A stretch of 25,209 bases of DNA from Oscillospiraceae bacterium. GTDB lineage: Bacteria; Bacillota; Clostridia; Oscillospirales; Oscillospiraceae. The stretch covers positions 1-25,209 of the forward strand of contig JAFTGG010000250.1 in the NCBI GenBank assembly GCA_017458025.1, written 5' to 3'. Position 1 is the first letter of the stretch. Each line of letters opens with the position of its first letter. Below the pieces are notes generated by a model. The model was not told the DNA's origin and searched no databases. It saw only the letters and a program-made list of their open reading frames with translations. The position numbers and the translations under genes were made by a program. Positions 10,826 to 25,157 of this stretch are shown here, piece by piece.

Positions 10826-10854
10826 TTGCAATTTCAAAAGCTTTCCTTTATCCT
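10826..10854 (+). promoter_or_regulatory. Candidate promoter of the uraA leader transcript
   Basis: TTGCAA (10826-10831), 17 bp, TATCCT (10849-10854). Each box matches 4 of 6 consensus positions. A start near 10861 would give a 31-base 5' leader before the small ORF at 10892. Confidence 0.5.
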
Positions 10855-10891
10855 TAGTCAAAGAAAAAATCCAACAGAGGAGGAACCCGTT

Positions 10892-10984
10892 ATGACGTTT
10901 CGGAATACGACCGCAAAAAACGGCCCCGCGTCCGGTGTTTTTATTTCTTCCTTTGTTGTTGATATTGTTGTTTCCCGTCGGTAG
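10892..10984 (+). CDS. 30-codon leader peptide upstream of uraA
   Basis: ATG at 10892 is preceded by an excellent ribosome site GAGGAGGA with a 7-base spacer, better than that of many full genes in the window. The ORF has 30 sense codons and stops with TAG at 10982-10984. The peptide begins MTFRNTTAKNG and ends VVSRR; it resembles no family I know. Two facts suggest it is regulatory: the stop lies inside the ascending arm of the intrinsic terminator at 10976-11007, and the second half of the ORF is a U-rich tract (25 of 36 bases T at 10938-10973). It is 183 bp before the uracil permease. A ribosome reaching the stop would cover the hairpin and prevent termination. Function is inferred from layout only. 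Confidence 0.6.
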   Translation: MTFRNTTAKNGPASGVFISSFVVDIVVSRR

Positions 10985-11007
10985 TTTTTCTACCGGCGTT
11001 ATTTTTT
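10976..11007 (+). terminator. Transcription attenuator in the uraA leader
   Basis: CGTCGGTAG pairs with CTACCGGCG (9 bp, one G-U) around a loop of five T, then TTATTTTTT. It is a complete intrinsic terminator on the plus strand with no full-length plus-strand gene upstream; the only plus-strand ORF it follows is the 30-codon leader. That position, between promoter and permease, is what marks it as an attenuator. Confidence 0.75.
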
Positions 11008-11167
11008 GCCCGTTCCGCGCGCAAAAAATATCCGGCGCCCGATTTCCCCGCCGCTTACGGGGCGGCCGGAAATTGACGGCGGCAAGGCCCCGTCCGTAAA
11101 GCTTTGTAATTCGCACGCTTGTGATAACTATTACAATAGATATTCAAAAGAAGGAGAGAACAGTCCC

Positions 11168-12550
11168 ATGAAAAAAGAACTCGGTCAGGAAGCTATTTAC
11201 GACGCGCGTGAGCTCGGCGTGCCCCGCATGCTCGTGCTCGGTCTGCAGCATTTGTTCGCCATGTTCGGCGCGACGGTGCTCGTCCCCATTCTCGTCCAGG
11301 GCTACGGCCTGCCGCTGAGTATTCAGACGACGCTGCTGATGGCGGGCCTCGGCACGCTGCTGTTCCATGTCTGCACCAAGATGAAGGTGCCCGCGTTCCT
11401 CGGCTCCTCGTTCGCCTACCTCGGCGGCTTCGCCGCCGTCGCCAGCCTCGACGCCGGCAAGTACGCGACCATGTCGCCCGACGACAAGCTCGCCTACGCG
11501 CTCGGCGGCATCGTGATCGCGGGTCTGCTGTACCTCGTGCTCGCGCTGCTCTTTAAGGTGCTCGGCGCGTGGAAGGTCATGCGTTACTTCCCGCCCATCG
11601 TCACCGGCCCGATGATCATCATGATCGGCCTCAACCTCGCGGGCAGCGCCATCGGCAACGCCAGCCGGTGCTGGTGGCTCGCGCTGGTGGCGATCGCGAT
11701 CATCATTGTCGCGAACATCTGGGGCAAGGGCATGGTCAAGATCATCCCGATCCTGCTCGGCGTCGTCGGCGCTTATATCATCGCCTTGATTGCCAACGCG
11801 TTCGGCGCCACCGCGTTGGATGCGCAGGGCAATGTCGTGCCGCTGCTTGATTTCTCGGCCGTCGCCTCCGCAAACATCGTCGGCCTCCAGCCCATCACCA
11901 TCGCAAAGTTCGACCTCACGTCCATCCTCGTCATGGCGCCCATCGCCATCGCCGCGATGATGGAGCACATCGGCGATATCAGCGCCATCTCCTCCACCAC
12001 GGGCAACAACTTCATCTCCGACCCGGGCCTGCACCGCACGCTCGTCGGCGACGGCCTTGCCACCGCGCTCGCCGGCTTCTTCGGCGGCCCCGCGAACACC
12101 ACCTACGGCGAGAACACCGGCGTGCTGGCGCTCTCCCGCGTCTACGACCCGCGCGTGATCCGCCTCGCGGCAGTCTACGCGATTATCCTCTCCTTCTCCC
12201 CGATGTTTGACGCGCTGGTCAACTCCATCCCTGCGGCGATCGTCGGCGGCGTCAGCTTTATCCTCTACGGCATGATCTCCGCGGTCGGCGTGCGCAACAT
12301 CGTCGAGAACCGCGTCGACCTCACGAAGTCCCGCAACCTCATCATCGCGGCGGTGATGTTCGTCAGCGGCCTCGGCTTCAGCTCCACCGGCGGCCTCACC
12401 TTTATGGTCGGCGATGCGGCGGTCACGCTGACCGGCCTCGCCATTGCGGCGCTGGCGGGCGTGCTGCTCAACGCGGTGCTTCCAGGCAACGACTATGAGT
12501 TCGGCGCGACCGAGAACGCCGATAAGGCGGCGGATCTGGGTACTTATTGA
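11168..12550 (+). CDS. uraA: Uracil permease (nucleobase:cation symporter 2 family)
   Basis: The product is 460 residues with about 14 membrane segments and is a UraA/PyrP-type proton-coupled uracil importer. The two substrate-binding glutamates of E. coli UraA (E241, E290) match E266 in MMEHIGD and E315 in TTYGENTGV with a constant shift of 25. QHLFAMFGATVLVP at 27-40 and FLGSSFAYLGG at 77-87 are family motifs. UraA H245 corresponds to D270 here, as I recall for Firmicute PyrP. AAGGAG lies 11 bp before the ATG at 11168; a longer frame from 11006 would start in the leader and lacks support. No pyr genes are adjacent. Expression probably depends on the leader attenuator at 10976-11007. A terminator follows at 12572-12628. 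Confidence 0.92.
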   Translation: MKKELGQEAIYDARELGVPRMLVLGLQHLFAMFGATVLVPILVQGYGLPLSIQTTLLMAGLGTLLFHVCTKMKVPAFLGSSFAYLGGFAAVASLDAGKYATMSPDDKLAYALGGIVIAGLLYLVLALLFKVLGAWKVMRYFPPIVTGPMIIMIGLNLAGSAIGNASRCWWLALVAIAIIIVANIWGKGMVKIIPILLGVVGAYIIALIANAFGATALDAQGNVVPLLDFSAVASANIVGLQPITIAKFDLTSILVMAPIAIAAMMEHIGDISAISSTTGNNFISDPGLHRTLVGDGLATALAGFFGGPANTTYGENTGVLALSRVYDPRVIRLAAVYAIILSFSPMFDALVNSIPAAIVGGVSFILYGMISAVGVRNIVENRVDLTKSRNLIIAAVMFVSGLGFSSTGGLTFMVGDAAVTLTGLAIAALAGVLLNAVLPGNDYEFGATENADKAADLGTY

Positions 12551-16557: not shown

Positions 16558-18027
16558 TTACTCCTTATTTTTCAGCCCCATAGCAATTTTGACCACGTTG
16601 TATGCGCCGTCGTAAACCCCGATGGATTTGTTTACCAGAATCGCCTTGATCATCTCGCCGAACAGCTCCTCCTCGCCGAGGAGCAGGTCGAGCATTTGCA
16701 GCGTGTGCGGGATATCCTCGCACTCGAGCGTGCCGTCGCCCAGCTCGGCGGAGTGGATCGCGCCCCAGCGCTCGTGCCCGCCGATGCGCTTTAAGAACAG
16801 CTTCGGCACGGGATAGAACGCCAGCTCGCTCGGCTTCGTCGCCAGCACGTCGCACGAGCGCATCAGGAGGTTCGTGCAGTACACCGCCTCGAAGATATTC
16901 GCGTGGTAGAACGCGTGCACGCCCTCGACCCTGCCGTCGATGGCGGCGTCCGCGAAGCGGACGGTCTCCGGCCAATTGTCGAAGTGCTCGGTCGAAAGCG
17001 CCGCGAGGCCGTCGACCTCGCGCGCCAGCTCGTCCCAGACCTTGCGGTAGTCGCCGACGTTGACGTAGAGCGCCGCGCGCTTTTCGCGCACCGCGGGCAG
17101 CAGGTGGCGAATGACCGCGGCAAACAGCTCGCGCTGCGCGCCCGCGCCGCCGATGGTCAGCAGGAAACGCATCGGCTCGCCGTTCTTTTTGCGATCGAGG
17201 CGGGCTTCGCAGTCCTTTTCAAGGTTCGCGACCAGCTCGTGGTCGACGTAGTGCCCCGTGTAGTACAGGCTGTCGGCGAGCATGGGCTTCAGCACGTCCT
17301 TGCCCTGCATACCGTTCAAAACGCGGTAGCCCATATAGCTCTGGTGCGTCTGTATCGTGTGGACGCCGCCCTCGGCGAGGTGGAGCGCCATAGGCCAATT
17401 GTCAGGAATGGCGTTGACGACGTGCTTCATGCCCGCGTGGAGCGCCGCCTGCGCGGGCCAGACATGGGTGCCGATGACGGGAATATCCTTCGGCACGTTC
17501 GCGAACACCGGCGCCATCAGCTCCGCGTTCTTCTGGTCGGACGCGTTATAGCTCAGCTTGCGGAAGCCCTCGTAGTTCATCGGCTCCCAGACGAGCTTGT
17601 TGAAGAGCTTGAACCTCTGCGACAGGCGCGAGCCGAGCGAGTACAGGTCGTTCTGCGCGCCGATGACCTTGGTGCAGGTCGTGTCGGGGTAGGAGTTCAA
17701 GTCCATCCAATACGGCGTATATCCCAGCGCGTGCGCCGCGCTCGCCATAGCGATGGAGATGCGGTAGTGCCCGAAGCCCATGCGAATGTTGCCGACGATG
17801 ACGCCCTTCCCTGTGTCAAAGCCGTTGTCGCCGCCGCCCTCCGCGACACGGATATCGCGCACGCCGAGCGGCGTGTACAGGCACCGGTTGTTGACGAGCT
17901 TCACGGGGTAATCGGCGTTCGCGTCGTCGCCGTACTTGCGCGCGTACTTTGCCTTGGATCTCACCGCCTTGTCGTAGTCCTTCCGCGAGATAGGGTTGCC
18001 GAATATGACCTTCGATCTATCGTCCAT
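16558..18027 (-). CDS. GT-B-like putative glycosyltransferase, family not recognised
   Basis: The 489-residue soluble protein has the layout of a GT-B glycosyltransferase. GNIRMGFGHYR at 79-89 resembles the glycine-rich acceptor loop of MGDG-synthase/MurG-like enzymes. The second half starts near 285 with FLLTIGGAGAQRE (GGAGAQRE at 293-300), like a nucleotide-sugar domain opening. KPSELAFYPVPKL at 398-410 resembles the donor-binding Pro/Glu region of GT28-type proteins. It has no signal peptide or membrane segment. I cannot assign a named family or substrate; a phosphorylase with the same fold is possible. It starts immediately after the GH2 stop (0 bp) with AAAGGAGAGGG upstream and lies 3 bp before the symporter, so it is a firm member of this operon. 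Confidence 0.65.
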   Translation of the reverse strand: MDDRSKVIFGNPISRKDYDKAVRSKAKYARKYGDDANADYPVKLVNNRCLYTPLGVRDIRVAEGGGDNGFDTGKGVIVGNIRMGFGHYRISIAMASAAHALGYTPYWMDLNSYPDTTCTKVIGAQNDLYSLGSRLSQRFKLFNKLVWEPMNYEGFRKLSYNASDQKNAELMAPVFANVPKDIPVIGTHVWPAQAALHAGMKHVVNAIPDNWPMALHLAEGGVHTIQTHQSYMGYRVLNGMQGKDVLKPMLADSLYYTGHYVDHELVANLEKDCEARLDRKKNGEPMRFLLTIGGAGAQRELFAAVIRHLLPAVREKRAALYVNVGDYRKVWDELAREVDGLAALSTEHFDNWPETVRFADAAIDGRVEGVHAFYHANIFEAVYCTNLLMRSCDVLATKPSELAFYPVPKLFLKRIGGHERWGAIHSAELGDGTLECEDIPHTLQMLDLLLGEEELFGEMIKAILVNKSIGVYDGAYNVVKIAMGLKNKE

Positions 18028-20370
18028 TTAGCCCTCTCCTTTGACTGTAAATTCTATCCTGACCGGCTCCGCGCCCTCGACCGAGAGCGTCAGCGCCGCC
18101 CTGCCCGTTTTGCCCGTGGTTTTCACATACGTCCCGCCGAGCCCGCCGCGCAGCATCGCCGTTTTCGGGCCGACGATCTCGATATCGCCCTCGGCGCGCA
18201 GCGTCACCGGCTCCTGCGCGAAGTGCAGGACGCCGCCGTTCTGGTCGACCAGCGCGAGGCGGATCGCCGCCATGTCGTAGGTCGCGCCCTCGACAAGCTC
18301 GGTGTGCGAAACGTCCGCGCGGAGACGGCGCTCCGTCGCCGGCGCCTTGACCGTCTCGGCGACGACCACGCCGTTTTTGACCGCCTCGAAGCGGAACACG
18401 GACGACGCGTCGCCCCAATTGTTGACGTACTTGCCGTAGAGCCTGTACGCGTCGTCGAAGCTCATGTGCCAGCGCGCCATCAGCACGCCCGCTTTCGCCA
18501 TGATCTCCGGCGGGAGATGATTCATGCCGAACCGCGCGGCGTAGTTGAGAAGATCCTTGACGTACTGCGCCTGCGTCGGCGCGAAGCGCTCGCCCCTGGC
18601 AATCTGATCGCCGATAAAGTCGTCCAACTCGATGGGCGGATTTTTGAGGTGCTTGTACGGGCTGTCCGCATGGGTGTAGGCGCGGATAAAGACCCCGTTT
18701 TTGTACATGCGCACCTCGTCCGCGTTCGTAAACGCGAACACGCGCCCGCGGTTGCTCGCCGCCTGCTCGCCGATGTCGAACGCCGAGCTGATCTCCAGCA
18801 GCGGCTCTCCCTCCCGCCGCGCGGCATAGACGCTTGCGGCGAGTTTCGGGTTGCGGAACATGTCCAGCACGCCGTGGTAGCAGACGCGGTCGCCGCTGCC
18901 GAAGTCGCGGTGGGTGTTGTAGTCGAACATGCACCAGCCGAAGCTGCCCGCGATGTCGTCCTCCGCCGCGACGGCGTCGAGCACGTTCGCGTGGCGCAGC
19001 GCGTGCTCGACGCGGCGCGCCTCGCTGTCAAAGGCCTTGGTCGGGTACATGTGCCCGTTGTATTCGCTCACGAGGTACGCTCTGTTCATGTCGGGCGTGA
19101 CGTCCTTTTTCTTCTCGCAGCCCTTTGCCTTGCCGTCGTGGACGAAGTCGTTGTAGGCGTACACGTCTTCGAGCAGGCTGCTCTTTTTCAGGTAGCGCAC
19201 GCCGCCGGTCGGGCGCGTCGGGTCGAGCCGGCGCGCGGCGGCGTTGGTGCGCTCGTAGAGCGCGTCGTCGTCCTGCGACTCGTTGACGCGCACGCCCCAG
19301 AGGATAACGGACGGATGGTTGCGGTACTGCCGCACCATGTCCTCGGTATTGCGCACCGCCTGCTCCTTCCACGCGTCCCCGCCGAGGTGCTGCCAGCCCG
19401 GGATCTCCGTGAACACCAGCAGGCCCAGCTCGTCGCAGCGGTCGATGAAGTGCTGCGACTGCGGGTAATGCGACGTGCGCACGGCGTTGCAGCCGAGCTC
19501 GTTTTTCAGGATCTCCGCGTCGAGCCGCTGGAGCGACTTTGGCGCGGCATAGCCCATATATGGGTAGCTCTGGTGGCGGTTGAGGCCGACCAGCTTGACC
19601 TTGCGCCCGTTGAGGTAAAAGCCGTCCGCGCGGAACTCCGCCTCGCGGAAGCCGAAGCGCGTCTCGGCACGGTCGATGACCTTGCCGCCGTCGAGCAGCT
19701 CGGTCACGAGCGTGTAGAGCTGCGGCTCGTCGACGTCCCAGCACTCCGCGTCGGGGACGTAAAGCGCGGTCTCGGTCTCCGCGCCGGAGACCTCGGCGGT
19801 CTTGCCGCTTTCGCCGACATACTGCCGCAGCGTCATGCCCGCGCGGAGCTCGCCGTCCAGCGTCACCGTGCTGTGCACCACGCCGGACAGCGCGGGGCGC
19901 GCGAACACGTCCGCGATATAGGTCTGCTCCGCGACCTCAAGCCACACCTCGCGGTACAGGCCGCCGTAGGTCATGTAGTCGACGACGTAGCCGAACGGCG
20001 GCTGGTCGAGGCTCTCGCGGGAATCGACCCTGATGACCAGCTCCACCTCCCTGCCCGGCGTCAGGCTGTCCGTCAGCTCGACGCGGAACGCCGTATAGCC
20101 GCAGCGATGCTCGGCAAGCTTCCGGCCGCCGGCGAACACCTCGGCGCGGTGTCCCGCCGCGCCGACGCAGAGGAACACGCGCTTGCCCGCCCATTCCTCG
20201 GGCGCGACGAGGCGCTTGCGATAGCCGCAGACCATTTGGTAGACGCCCTCGTCAAAATAGTCGTAAGGCGTCTCGCGGCAGGTGTGCGGCAGCGAAACGG
20301 TGACAGGGTTGCTGAAATCGTCAAAATGCTCTGTAAACTCCCAATCGCGGTTCAAGTCGATCTTCTGCAT
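18028..20370 (-). CDS. Glycoside hydrolase family 2 (beta-galactosidase/beta-glucuronidase type)
   Basis: The 780-residue enzyme has the GH2 order: sugar-binding jelly roll (about 1-150, with GLYREVWLEV closing it), an immunoglobulin-like domain (about 155-245), the TIM barrel (about 248-520) and C-terminal beta domains. GLNRHQSYP at 262-270 is the barrel start. E364 in WGVRVNESQDD is the acid/base and E436 in YLVSEYNGH the nucleophile. It has no signal peptide, so it acts on substrate imported by the GPH symporter. Substrate is unproven; RHQ instead of LacZ RHEHHP argues against a classical lactase. The ATG at 20370 has GGGAG upstream; the longer frame begins with TTG. It is first gene of a four-gene operon. 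Confidence 0.9.
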   Translation of the reverse strand: MQKIDLNRDWEFTEHFDDFSNPVTVSLPHTCRETPYDYFDEGVYQMVCGYRKRLVAPEEWAGKRVFLCVGAAGHRAEVFAGGRKLAEHRCGYTAFRVELTDSLTPGREVELVIRVDSRESLDQPPFGYVVDYMTYGGLYREVWLEVAEQTYIADVFARPALSGVVHSTVTLDGELRAGMTLRQYVGESGKTAEVSGAETETALYVPDAECWDVDEPQLYTLVTELLDGGKVIDRAETRFGFREAEFRADGFYLNGRKVKLVGLNRHQSYPYMGYAAPKSLQRLDAEILKNELGCNAVRTSHYPQSQHFIDRCDELGLLVFTEIPGWQHLGGDAWKEQAVRNTEDMVRQYRNHPSVILWGVRVNESQDDDALYERTNAAARRLDPTRPTGGVRYLKKSSLLEDVYAYNDFVHDGKAKGCEKKKDVTPDMNRAYLVSEYNGHMYPTKAFDSEARRVEHALRHANVLDAVAAEDDIAGSFGWCMFDYNTHRDFGSGDRVCYHGVLDMFRNPKLAASVYAARREGEPLLEISSAFDIGEQAASNRGRVFAFTNADEVRMYKNGVFIRAYTHADSPYKHLKNPPIELDDFIGDQIARGERFAPTQAQYVKDLLNYAARFGMNHLPPEIMAKAGVLMARWHMSFDDAYRLYGKYVNNWGDASSVFRFEAVKNGVVVAETVKAPATERRLRADVSHTELVEGATYDMAAIRLALVDQNGGVLHFAQEPVTLRAEGDIEIVGPKTAMLRGGLGGTYVKTTGKTGRAALTLSVEGAEPVRIEFTVKGEG

Positions 20371-20406
20371 GGCGTGTTCTCCCGCTTTCTTTTCAGACAA
20401 TTGGTT

Positions 20407-20435
20407 ATTTTACCATATAATACAAGAAAACGCAA
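20407..20435 (-). promoter_or_regulatory. Promoter of the GH2-GT-symporter-HAD operon
   Basis: On the minus strand TTGCGT (20430-20435), 17 bp, TAAAAT (20407-20412), about 30 bp before the ATG. A short inverted repeat TGGT-N6-ACCA (20402-20415) covers the -10 and could be an operator. No regulator gene is linked. Confidence 0.6.
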
Positions 20436-20449
20436 TGCCCCATTCGTAT

Positions 20450-20477
20450 AAAACGCCCGTGGGATATCCCGCGGGCG
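20450..20477 (-). terminator. Terminator after trmO
   Basis: CGCCCGTGGGAT pairs with ATCCCGCGGGCG (one G-U), followed on the minus strand by TTTTAT. It separates the HTH-trmO transcript from the GH2 promoter, which starts 15 bp further on. Confidence 0.75.
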
Positions 20478-25073: not shown

Positions 25074-25157
25074 GGTGGGGGAAGGTGGATTCGAACCACC
25101 GAAGTCACTGACAACAGATTTACAGTCTGCCCCCTTTGGCCGCTCGGGAACCCATCC
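25073..25157 (-). tRNA. tRNA-Tyr (GUA), acceptor stem poorly paired
   Basis: On the minus strand the body is a standard class II tRNA-Tyr. The D arm begins TTCCCGAGCGGCCAAAGG; the anticodon loop CTGTAAA has GTA at 25121-25123 within stem CAGA/TCTG; the variable arm is long, around GTC-AGT-GAC; the T arm is GGTGG-TTCGAAT-CCACC; the 3' end is A-CCA. However the 5' acceptor strand GGATGGG faces TTCCCCC, which gives A3-C70 and U4-C69 mismatches and two G-U pairs. It may therefore be a defective copy or a hybrid of two tRNA-Tyr genes. Confidence 0.85.

Follow-up and report, generated by a model that had tools for sequence, protein, structure and literature searches.

A conserved uraA leader in Oscillospiraceae as a candidate pyrBI-type UTP attenuator of uracil uptake

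Introduction

In the pyrE attenuator of Escherichia coli, translation of an upstream open reading frame (ORF), the full gene rph, ends near the attenuator after a U-rich stretch. The leader described here, found upstream of the uracil permease gene uraA of an Oscillospiraceae bacterium, differs in having a dedicated ORF, 14-44 codons long in 60 leaders. At E. coli pyrBI, as laid out in the available text of PMC10135430, high UTP brings fast transcription and termination, and low UTP brings pausing and masking by the ribosome. The pyrBI leader (pyrL) and the uraA leader share a sigma-70 promoter, a Shine-Dalgarno (SD) sequence, a short ORF with a U-rich second half, a terminator that a ribosome could mask, and a pyrimidine gene downstream. 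They differ in what they would control, uptake in Clostridia for uraA and biosynthesis in enterics for pyrBI, and in where the ORF ends, since the uraA ORF mostly stops at or in the terminator, whereas that of pyrL continues to 44 nt beyond the stem start. The initially transcribed regions of the uraA leaders have no common U run by eye, compared with the UTP-sensitive reiterative transcription that is an accessory feature of pyrBI at its start site.

Other leaders combine some of these parts. According to the accessible portions of the sources, the Bacillus subtilis tlrB (yxjB) and vmlR genes are preceded by Firmicute leader ORFs in which translation and polymerase pausing control a terminator, and tlrB has an SD-sequestering hairpin (PMC6851288). 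These systems respond to antibiotics, however, and what the tlrB hairpin sequesters is the resistance-gene SD rather than that of the leader. The trp and his attenuators likewise place a translated leader ORF ahead of a terminator, but uraA leaders have neither a conserved single-codon cluster nor an antiterminator. No report of this uraA leader, or of pyrBI-type attenuation in Firmicutes, was found in the full-text literature searched, most subscription papers being out of its reach. Of two related papers, PMC2965389 takes up Firmicute leader peptides in connection with hisS, and PMC3766115 lists the PyrR motif under pyrimidine metabolism; neither uraA nor uracil appears in the available text of either.

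The DNA analysed (the window) is a contig of 25,209 nucleotides from an assembly of 2.0 Mb in 282 contigs that is 89% complete. Its uraA leader is best read, with a probability of roughly two in three as judged from the sequence, as a pyrBI-type, translation-coupled UTP attenuator of uracil uptake that also gates ribosome loading.

Anatomy of the uraA leader

Direct reading of the window confirmed all elements of the leader base for base (Table 1). A first-pass annotation had described a promoter-like pair, a leader ORF with a strong ribosome site, a dense run of T just before a hairpin, and a complete terminator with the leader stop codon in its ascending arm. The ORF and its ribosome site were read as described, the T count proved exact, and the terminator was upheld by both reading and folding. 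The promoter-like pair is present as well, but its match is partial and lies under the scanner's threshold. No second stretch as dense in T was found on either strand of the window. The bias reaches third codon positions: T fills 12 of the 15 in the leader's second half versus 8% in uraA.

Table 1. Features of the uraA leader in the window.
Feature	Position	Strand	Details
Sigma-A-like promoter, TTGCAA-17-TATCCT	10826-10854	+	-35 10826-10831, -10 10849-10854; 8/12 match
Hairpin H1, 5' arm (predicted)	10872-10885	+	Holds leader SD; 14 pairs including G-U, partner 10945-10958; folding
Leader SD, AGGAGG	10878-10883	+	8 nt upstream of leader ATG
Leader ORF, 30 codons, MTFRNTTAKNGPASGVFISSFVVDIVVSRR*	10892-10984	+	ATG 10892-10894, TAG 10982-10984
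U-rich tract	10938-10973	+	25/36 T; direct count
Hairpin H1, 3' arm (predicted)	10945-10958	+	Anti-SD within U tract; partner 10872-10885; folding
Intrinsic terminator H2 (candidate attenuator)	10976-11007	+	9-bp stem 10976-10984/10990-10998, 5-nt loop, T tail
Leader stop codon, TAG	10982-10984	+	Final 3 nt of the 9-nt ascending H2 arm
uraA, NCS2 uracil permease	11168-12550	+	TIGR00801 above cut-off

The terminator H2 has the tail TTATTTTTT (10999-11007) and a folding energy of -14.2 kcal/mol (z -6.49 against shuffles). A lone terminator is unremarkable in this window, where the scanner found 1 and expected 1.6; it is the combination of elements and its conservation, rather than the terminator by itself, that exceeds chance. 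Across the leaders compared, runs complementary to the terminator arm average 6.00, against 6.32 in shuffles, and at Rfam gathering thresholds the window yields a tRNA (25076-25157) and no PyrR RNA or other cis-regulatory element. The claimed absence of a PyrR-type anti-antiterminator thus holds for the window, and an antiterminator or a riboswitch was rejected for lack of an Rfam match in the window and of complementarity beyond shuffles. The GC-rich segment with inverted repeats between the terminator and uraA (11030-11110) folds no better than shuffles (z -0.70).

The gene downstream had been called a uracil permease, with which both the TIGR00801 match and the closest solved chains, those of the E. 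coli uracil permease (8omz, 3qe7 and 5xls; E<=2.9e-57), agree; its match to the uracil permease equivalog model NF007995 lies below that model's cut-off. Its substrate is presumably uracil and its role pyrimidine supply.

Conservation of the leader among relatives

The leader was compared across the best 80 of 585 confirmed candidate uraA loci from named genomes, a sample that favours close relatives; L063 lacks upstream DNA. A strict detector demanded a stem of at least 6 bp with at least 4 G-C pairs, a T tail, an ATG-initiated ORF of 12-50 codons with an SD, and a stop codon between -6 and +24 from the stem start, a position at which pyrL itself would fail. It was positive in 56 of 80 uraA upstream regions (the window and 79 others) and in none of 400 dinucleotide shuffles, 4 of which held any terminator at all, and a looser detector was positive in 65 of 81. 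The DNA flanking these loci contained 103 other extragenic terminators, 2 of which had the order of SD, ORF and stop within the terminator, neither with a U tract by eye. In the window's genus, uraA was found at E<=1e-150 in 14 of 18 genomes, each of which has, by eye, an SD, a leader ORF and a U-rich tract, with the stop codon lying in the terminator; 7 of the 14 repeat species within the 80 as judged by identical upstream sequence. The first-pass annotation had proposed testing whether these elements are shared by relatives, and the answer is strongly positive.

The reading frame is kept along with the parts. Frame analysis used 66 of the 80 loci, 6 having no SD-ATG by rule and 8 no terminator. 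The ORF chosen by SD strength, irrespective of its end position, reaches the stem without a stop in 60 of the 66, compared with 22 and 41 for the other two frames, and the unfiltered leader stop falls between -6 and +24 of the stem start in 55, compared with 7 and 5. A disrupted leader ORF ahead of an intact hairpin had been named as contrary evidence; four of the remaining six loci (L012, L021, L032 and L044) have an alternative ATG that gives an open leader ORF, which leaves as exceptions L038, where the ORF ends early, and L060. The ORF runs through the hairpin, like that of pyrL, in L024, L034, L040, L042 and L071, and by eye in L060. L028 and L120 would require a TTG start, no terminator was found upstream of uraA in L046, L059, L068, L073, L077, L079 and L082, and L075, included in the 60 leaders, was judged spurious by eye.

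The leader SD is AGGAGG in 34 of the 60 leaders. No leader-peptide sequence is shared across genera, while frame, U-richness and stop position are kept; a functional small protein was rejected because the peptides are unrelated between genera. Since the arrangement is kept while the peptide varies, the importer is probably made only at low UTP. Two different frames of the same TGACCGGTA(A)-type arm can supply the stop codon, a pattern suggesting that selection acts on having a stop in the arm and not on a single frame. T makes up a growing share of the 60 leaders as the stem nears, starting at 0.15 and reaching 0.54 (0.47-0.54 over the final 30 nt), and the C fraction stays at 0.16-0.25 along the whole leader. 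At codon positions 1, 2 and 3, T makes up 0.39, 0.47 and 0.52 late in the leader ORF versus 0.20, 0.29 and 0.22 early in it.

This composition bears on what the leader might sense. The second half encodes 19% Phe and 15% Ser, its codons being spread across Phe, Ser, Val, Ile and Leu, and such a bias might be expected of a translation-level sensor that responds to ribosome availability or to stalling at Phe, Ser or Val codons, with U-richness as a secondary feature. That no fixed peptide is conserved, that T is enriched at third positions too, that there is no antiterminator and that nothing obvious ties a uracil transporter to Phe or Ser make this account very improbable.

U-richness could instead serve NusG-directed pausing or the anti-SD role itself. 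Pro-pausing NusG is widely conserved and, in the available text of PMC12288461, acts with TTNTTT and a hairpin placed 11-12 nt before the 3' end; pausing of this type in the T-rich tract, as in the B. subtilis tlrB and vmlR leaders, would synchronise ribosome and polymerase in response to a signal other than UTP. Both TTATTT (10941) and TTGTTT (10968) occur in the window, and TTNTTT with N other than T is somewhat above expectation (36 vs 27.3, sd 4.5). The motif as a whole is not enriched over composition, however (54 vs 62.8, sd 8.7), its presence in 33 of 57 tracts being what composition predicts, and the spacing of the predicted hairpin H1 to either window motif, measured by hand, misfits the described geometry. 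We consider a NusG-type signal improbable and retain UTP as the preferred one.

Promoter-like pairs matching at least 9 of 12 positions precede 40 of the 60 leaders versus 12% of shuffles, and those matching at least 8 of 12 precede 56 versus 42%; in relatives they lie 25-48 nt upstream of the leader ATG. This count used 300 nt, beyond which the window's own promoter lies, so that it was entered as a miss. The window's gap of 169 nt between stem end and uraA, the longest among the 60 leaders, contains a promoter-like site with a 9/12 match (11110-11137), as might be expected if the leader were a small upstream transcript with its own terminator and uraA were transcribed from a later promoter without regulation. 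Such sites are near chance (2 found vs 0.8+/-0.9 expected), and a functionless ORF would keep neither frame nor stop position. The gap also shrinks to 26-29 nt in relatives, which is too short for a separate uraA promoter and leaves too little room for a transcription start after the terminator, another contrary finding that had been anticipated. An unregulated uraA is hardly credible on these grounds.

Two uraA genes with the same type of leader (L031 and L061) occur in records titled as Spirochaetales and Sphaerochaetaceae MAGs, which reflects either transfer or MAG mislabelling.

Predicted pairing of the Shine-Dalgarno sequence with the U tract

In the window and in relatives, folding pairs the leader SD with its own U tract. 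This second hairpin, H1, was missed by the earlier interpretation and, as modelled, would add a step to the mechanism. For the SD core, the mean probability of pairing within the 60 nt that precede the stem is 0.82, with values above 0.5 in 53 of 57 leaders. Against shuffled tracts, the pairing of SD and tract has a mean z of -1.31 over 60 leaders, with p<=0.05 in 21 of them.

An alignment-free permutation test asked whether the SD region fits its own tract better than the tracts of other species. The H1 tests covered 60, 57 or 52 leaders that passed the openness filter, the sets of 57 and 52 being filtered for redundancy as well. In the 57 non-redundant leaders, own pairings average -18.4 kcal/mol versus -16.3 kcal/mol for permuted ones, and 0 of 20,000 permutations were as good; with the genus set left out, the values are -17.97 and -16.21 kcal/mol (z -4.55, n=52). 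The species-specific complementarity of SD and own tract is new here. Two controls were negative: one set the SD region of uraA itself against the leader tract (z +1.54, p 0.94), the other paired the leader SD with the opening 30 nt of the ORF (z +2.57, p 0.997). A third, in which the post-terminator spacer served as partner of the leader SD, was weakly positive (p 0.04). The leader SD thus seems to avoid early partners, as ribosome sites in general might have to. Bases 5' of the SD core add little (p 0.20 in 57 leaders; p 0.04 in 52 leaders with 3 core nt included).

Column covariation of the four outer H1 pairs is not significant in the genus alignment, in which L194 and L195 were misplaced by the aligner: 59 of 500 shuffles scored as high, 3 cells changed on both sides, and 71.4% of cells were paired compared with 70.7% after shuffling. 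Reliance was placed on the permutation test for this reason and because it needs no alignment.

A pure pyrBI mechanism would account for the locus without any loading gate, the fit of SD and tract being a by-product of a purine SD facing a pyrimidine tract. Every pyrBI part is present, purine and pyrimidine arms pair readily by chance, and the H1 columns do not covary significantly, all of which such a mechanism would lead one to expect. It would not, however, explain why each SD prefers its own tract to the similarly U-rich tracts of other species, nor why the uraA SD and the first 30 nt of the ORF show no such fit. An ungated attenuator is for these reasons unlikely, and the gated one is preferred. 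A further step, that the U tract would be UTP sensor and anti-SD at once, so that the switch would be a race of ribosome loading against polymerase progress and not just pursuit of the polymerase by a ribosome in mid-translation, is offered tentatively, as somewhat less probable than even.

An SD:tract hairpin is predicted for E. coli pyrL as well as for uraA. In E. coli K-12 pyrL (L141:2905-3060, minus strand), the minimum free energy structure pairs the SD CGGGAGGA with the tract UCUUCCCG. If the gate is real, this prediction would mean that classical pyrBI has the same gate, of which no mention was found in the literature searched, and would change the view of how UTP attenuators time the ribosome.

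Proposed mechanism and transcription-translation coupling

The first-pass annotation had proposed a pyrBI-like attenuator of the uracil permease, and this proposal is supported by the anatomy and its conservation; we infer the translation of the leader, UTP as the signal, the on/off logic and all kinetics. Transcription would start about 7 nt past 10854. When UTP is ample, RNA polymerase would transcribe the U-rich second half of the ORF without delay, the tract would pair with the leader SD to form H1 before a ribosome loads, and the leader would stay untranslated; H2 would then fold and uraA would not be transcribed. When UTP is scarce, polymerase would slow at the roughly 25 U residues, allowing a ribosome to load on the still open SD, follow closely and keep H1 open. 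On reaching the stop codon within the ascending arm of H2, this ribosome would prevent the terminator from folding, and uraA would be transcribed.

Such a device depends on the distance between stop codon and terminator. In E. coli, termination fell from ~90% to <10% when a stop codon 28 bp ahead of a terminator was shifted to 5 bp from it, as stated in the available text of PMC4824070. The leader stops lie at or in the stem, at a median of -1 nt from its start (n=55). For ordinary genes at uraA loci, the stem begins 0-29 nt after the first stop base in 28 of 37, lies 26-30 nt before the stop in 1, and is further away in 8. Overlap of stop and stem also occurs outside leaders, in 1 of the 37 ordinary genes and, in a sample from genome G036, in 2 of 15 ordinary stops, which lie past the stem start.

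The short stop-to-terminator spacing of the ordinary genes at these loci resembles a proxy for uncoupled transcription given in the accessible text of the review PMC7858274, according to which B. subtilis, and perhaps many bacteria, are thought to transcribe and translate largely without coupling. The parts of the attenuator make best sense if a ribosome reaches the polymerase within ~150 nt. A widely conserved attenuator of this design would suggest that coupling is used in Clostridia at least locally, and it would provide a ready reporter for coupling. If real, the SD gate would suit settings in which polymerase normally outruns ribosomes.

PyrR, pyrimidine genes and distribution

The PyrR attenuators of Firmicutes (RF00515) also place pyrimidine genes under transcription attenuation. 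In contrast to that arrangement, PyrR protein is over cut-off in only 1 of 40 leader-bearing genomes, a set that includes the read-through variants L042 and L060, versus 13 of 61 genomes of the family, a comparison that is not like for like because uraA is present at E<=1e-80 in only 18 of the 61. Two of these 18 have PyrR, both in pyrR-uraA operons that lack the leader (G004 and G051). PyrR RNA occurs at E<=1e-3 in 8 of the 61 family genomes, one match being over cut-off. An Rfam search of the window's own assembly (89% complete) gave no PyrR RNA, and its only PyrR protein match is far below cut-off (39.5 of 138 bits). PyrR control of this leader was rejected, given the missing RNA and the rarity of the protein in leader-bearing genomes. 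The leader would offer an alternative to PyrR for pyrimidine sensing in gut Oscillospiraceae.

Outside the family, L182 was flagged by the leader detector and carries a PyrR RNA, and the uraA upstream regions read in distant Clostridia hold pyrR operons, PyrR RNAs or plain promoters. In other Clostridia families, the uraA leaders of L170, L173 and L174 look structured by eye, for instance with a ATCTTTAAA...AAGAT-like stem in L174; these three upstream regions have no Rfam match at E<=0.05.

On a UraA tree of 114 rows (79 labelled leader, 24 none, 4 pyrR and 7 unscored, leader being the default for rows not listed otherwise), the leader label clusters, with 8 changes versus 25.0 after shuffling and 0 of 500 shuffles as low. 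All but two leader rows (77 of 79) fall in one group of 97, which also has 15 rows without a leader; L066 and L129 lie outside it. The leader is specific to uraA as far as tested. It was upstream of upp in 0 of 24 loci and of pyrG in 0 of 18, counts that omit the duplicates L215 and L245 and the partial L251 from 25 and 20 loci, and none was seen by eye at 30 pyrB loci, a partly informative survey in that minus-strand loci were not re-oriented. A pyrimidine regulon sharing the leader was rejected on these counts. A 400 kb sample of the 2.1 Mb G036 genome contained 40 extragenic terminators and returned the uraA leader plus one T-poor spurious match.

Uptake may carry particular weight in some of these organisms. 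Among the leader-bearing genomes, pyrB is over cut-off in 25 of 40 and in 15 no match is over cut-off. It is not over cut-off in 6 of 7 genus members tested (L007, L010, L011, L022, L029 and L070; present in L036), which suggests dependence on uracil uptake in these, and is also missing in the near relatives L003 and L005 and present in L008. In genomes without pyrB over cut-off, uraA may lie on the main pyrimidine supply line. The L007 genome has upp and pyrG; the window's own assembly has no match to either, and gaps there prove nothing.

Two minor observations concern other sequences. By eye, a terminator-like hairpin with a T tail lies shortly after a promoter-like sequence of pyrG in L234 and L236, possibly a separate nucleotide-responsive attenuator. 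In the window, an open frame of 1182 aa (16903-20451, plus strand) runs antisense to a 790-aa ORF (18028-20400, minus strand) and is probably spurious, owing to the GC-rich genome.
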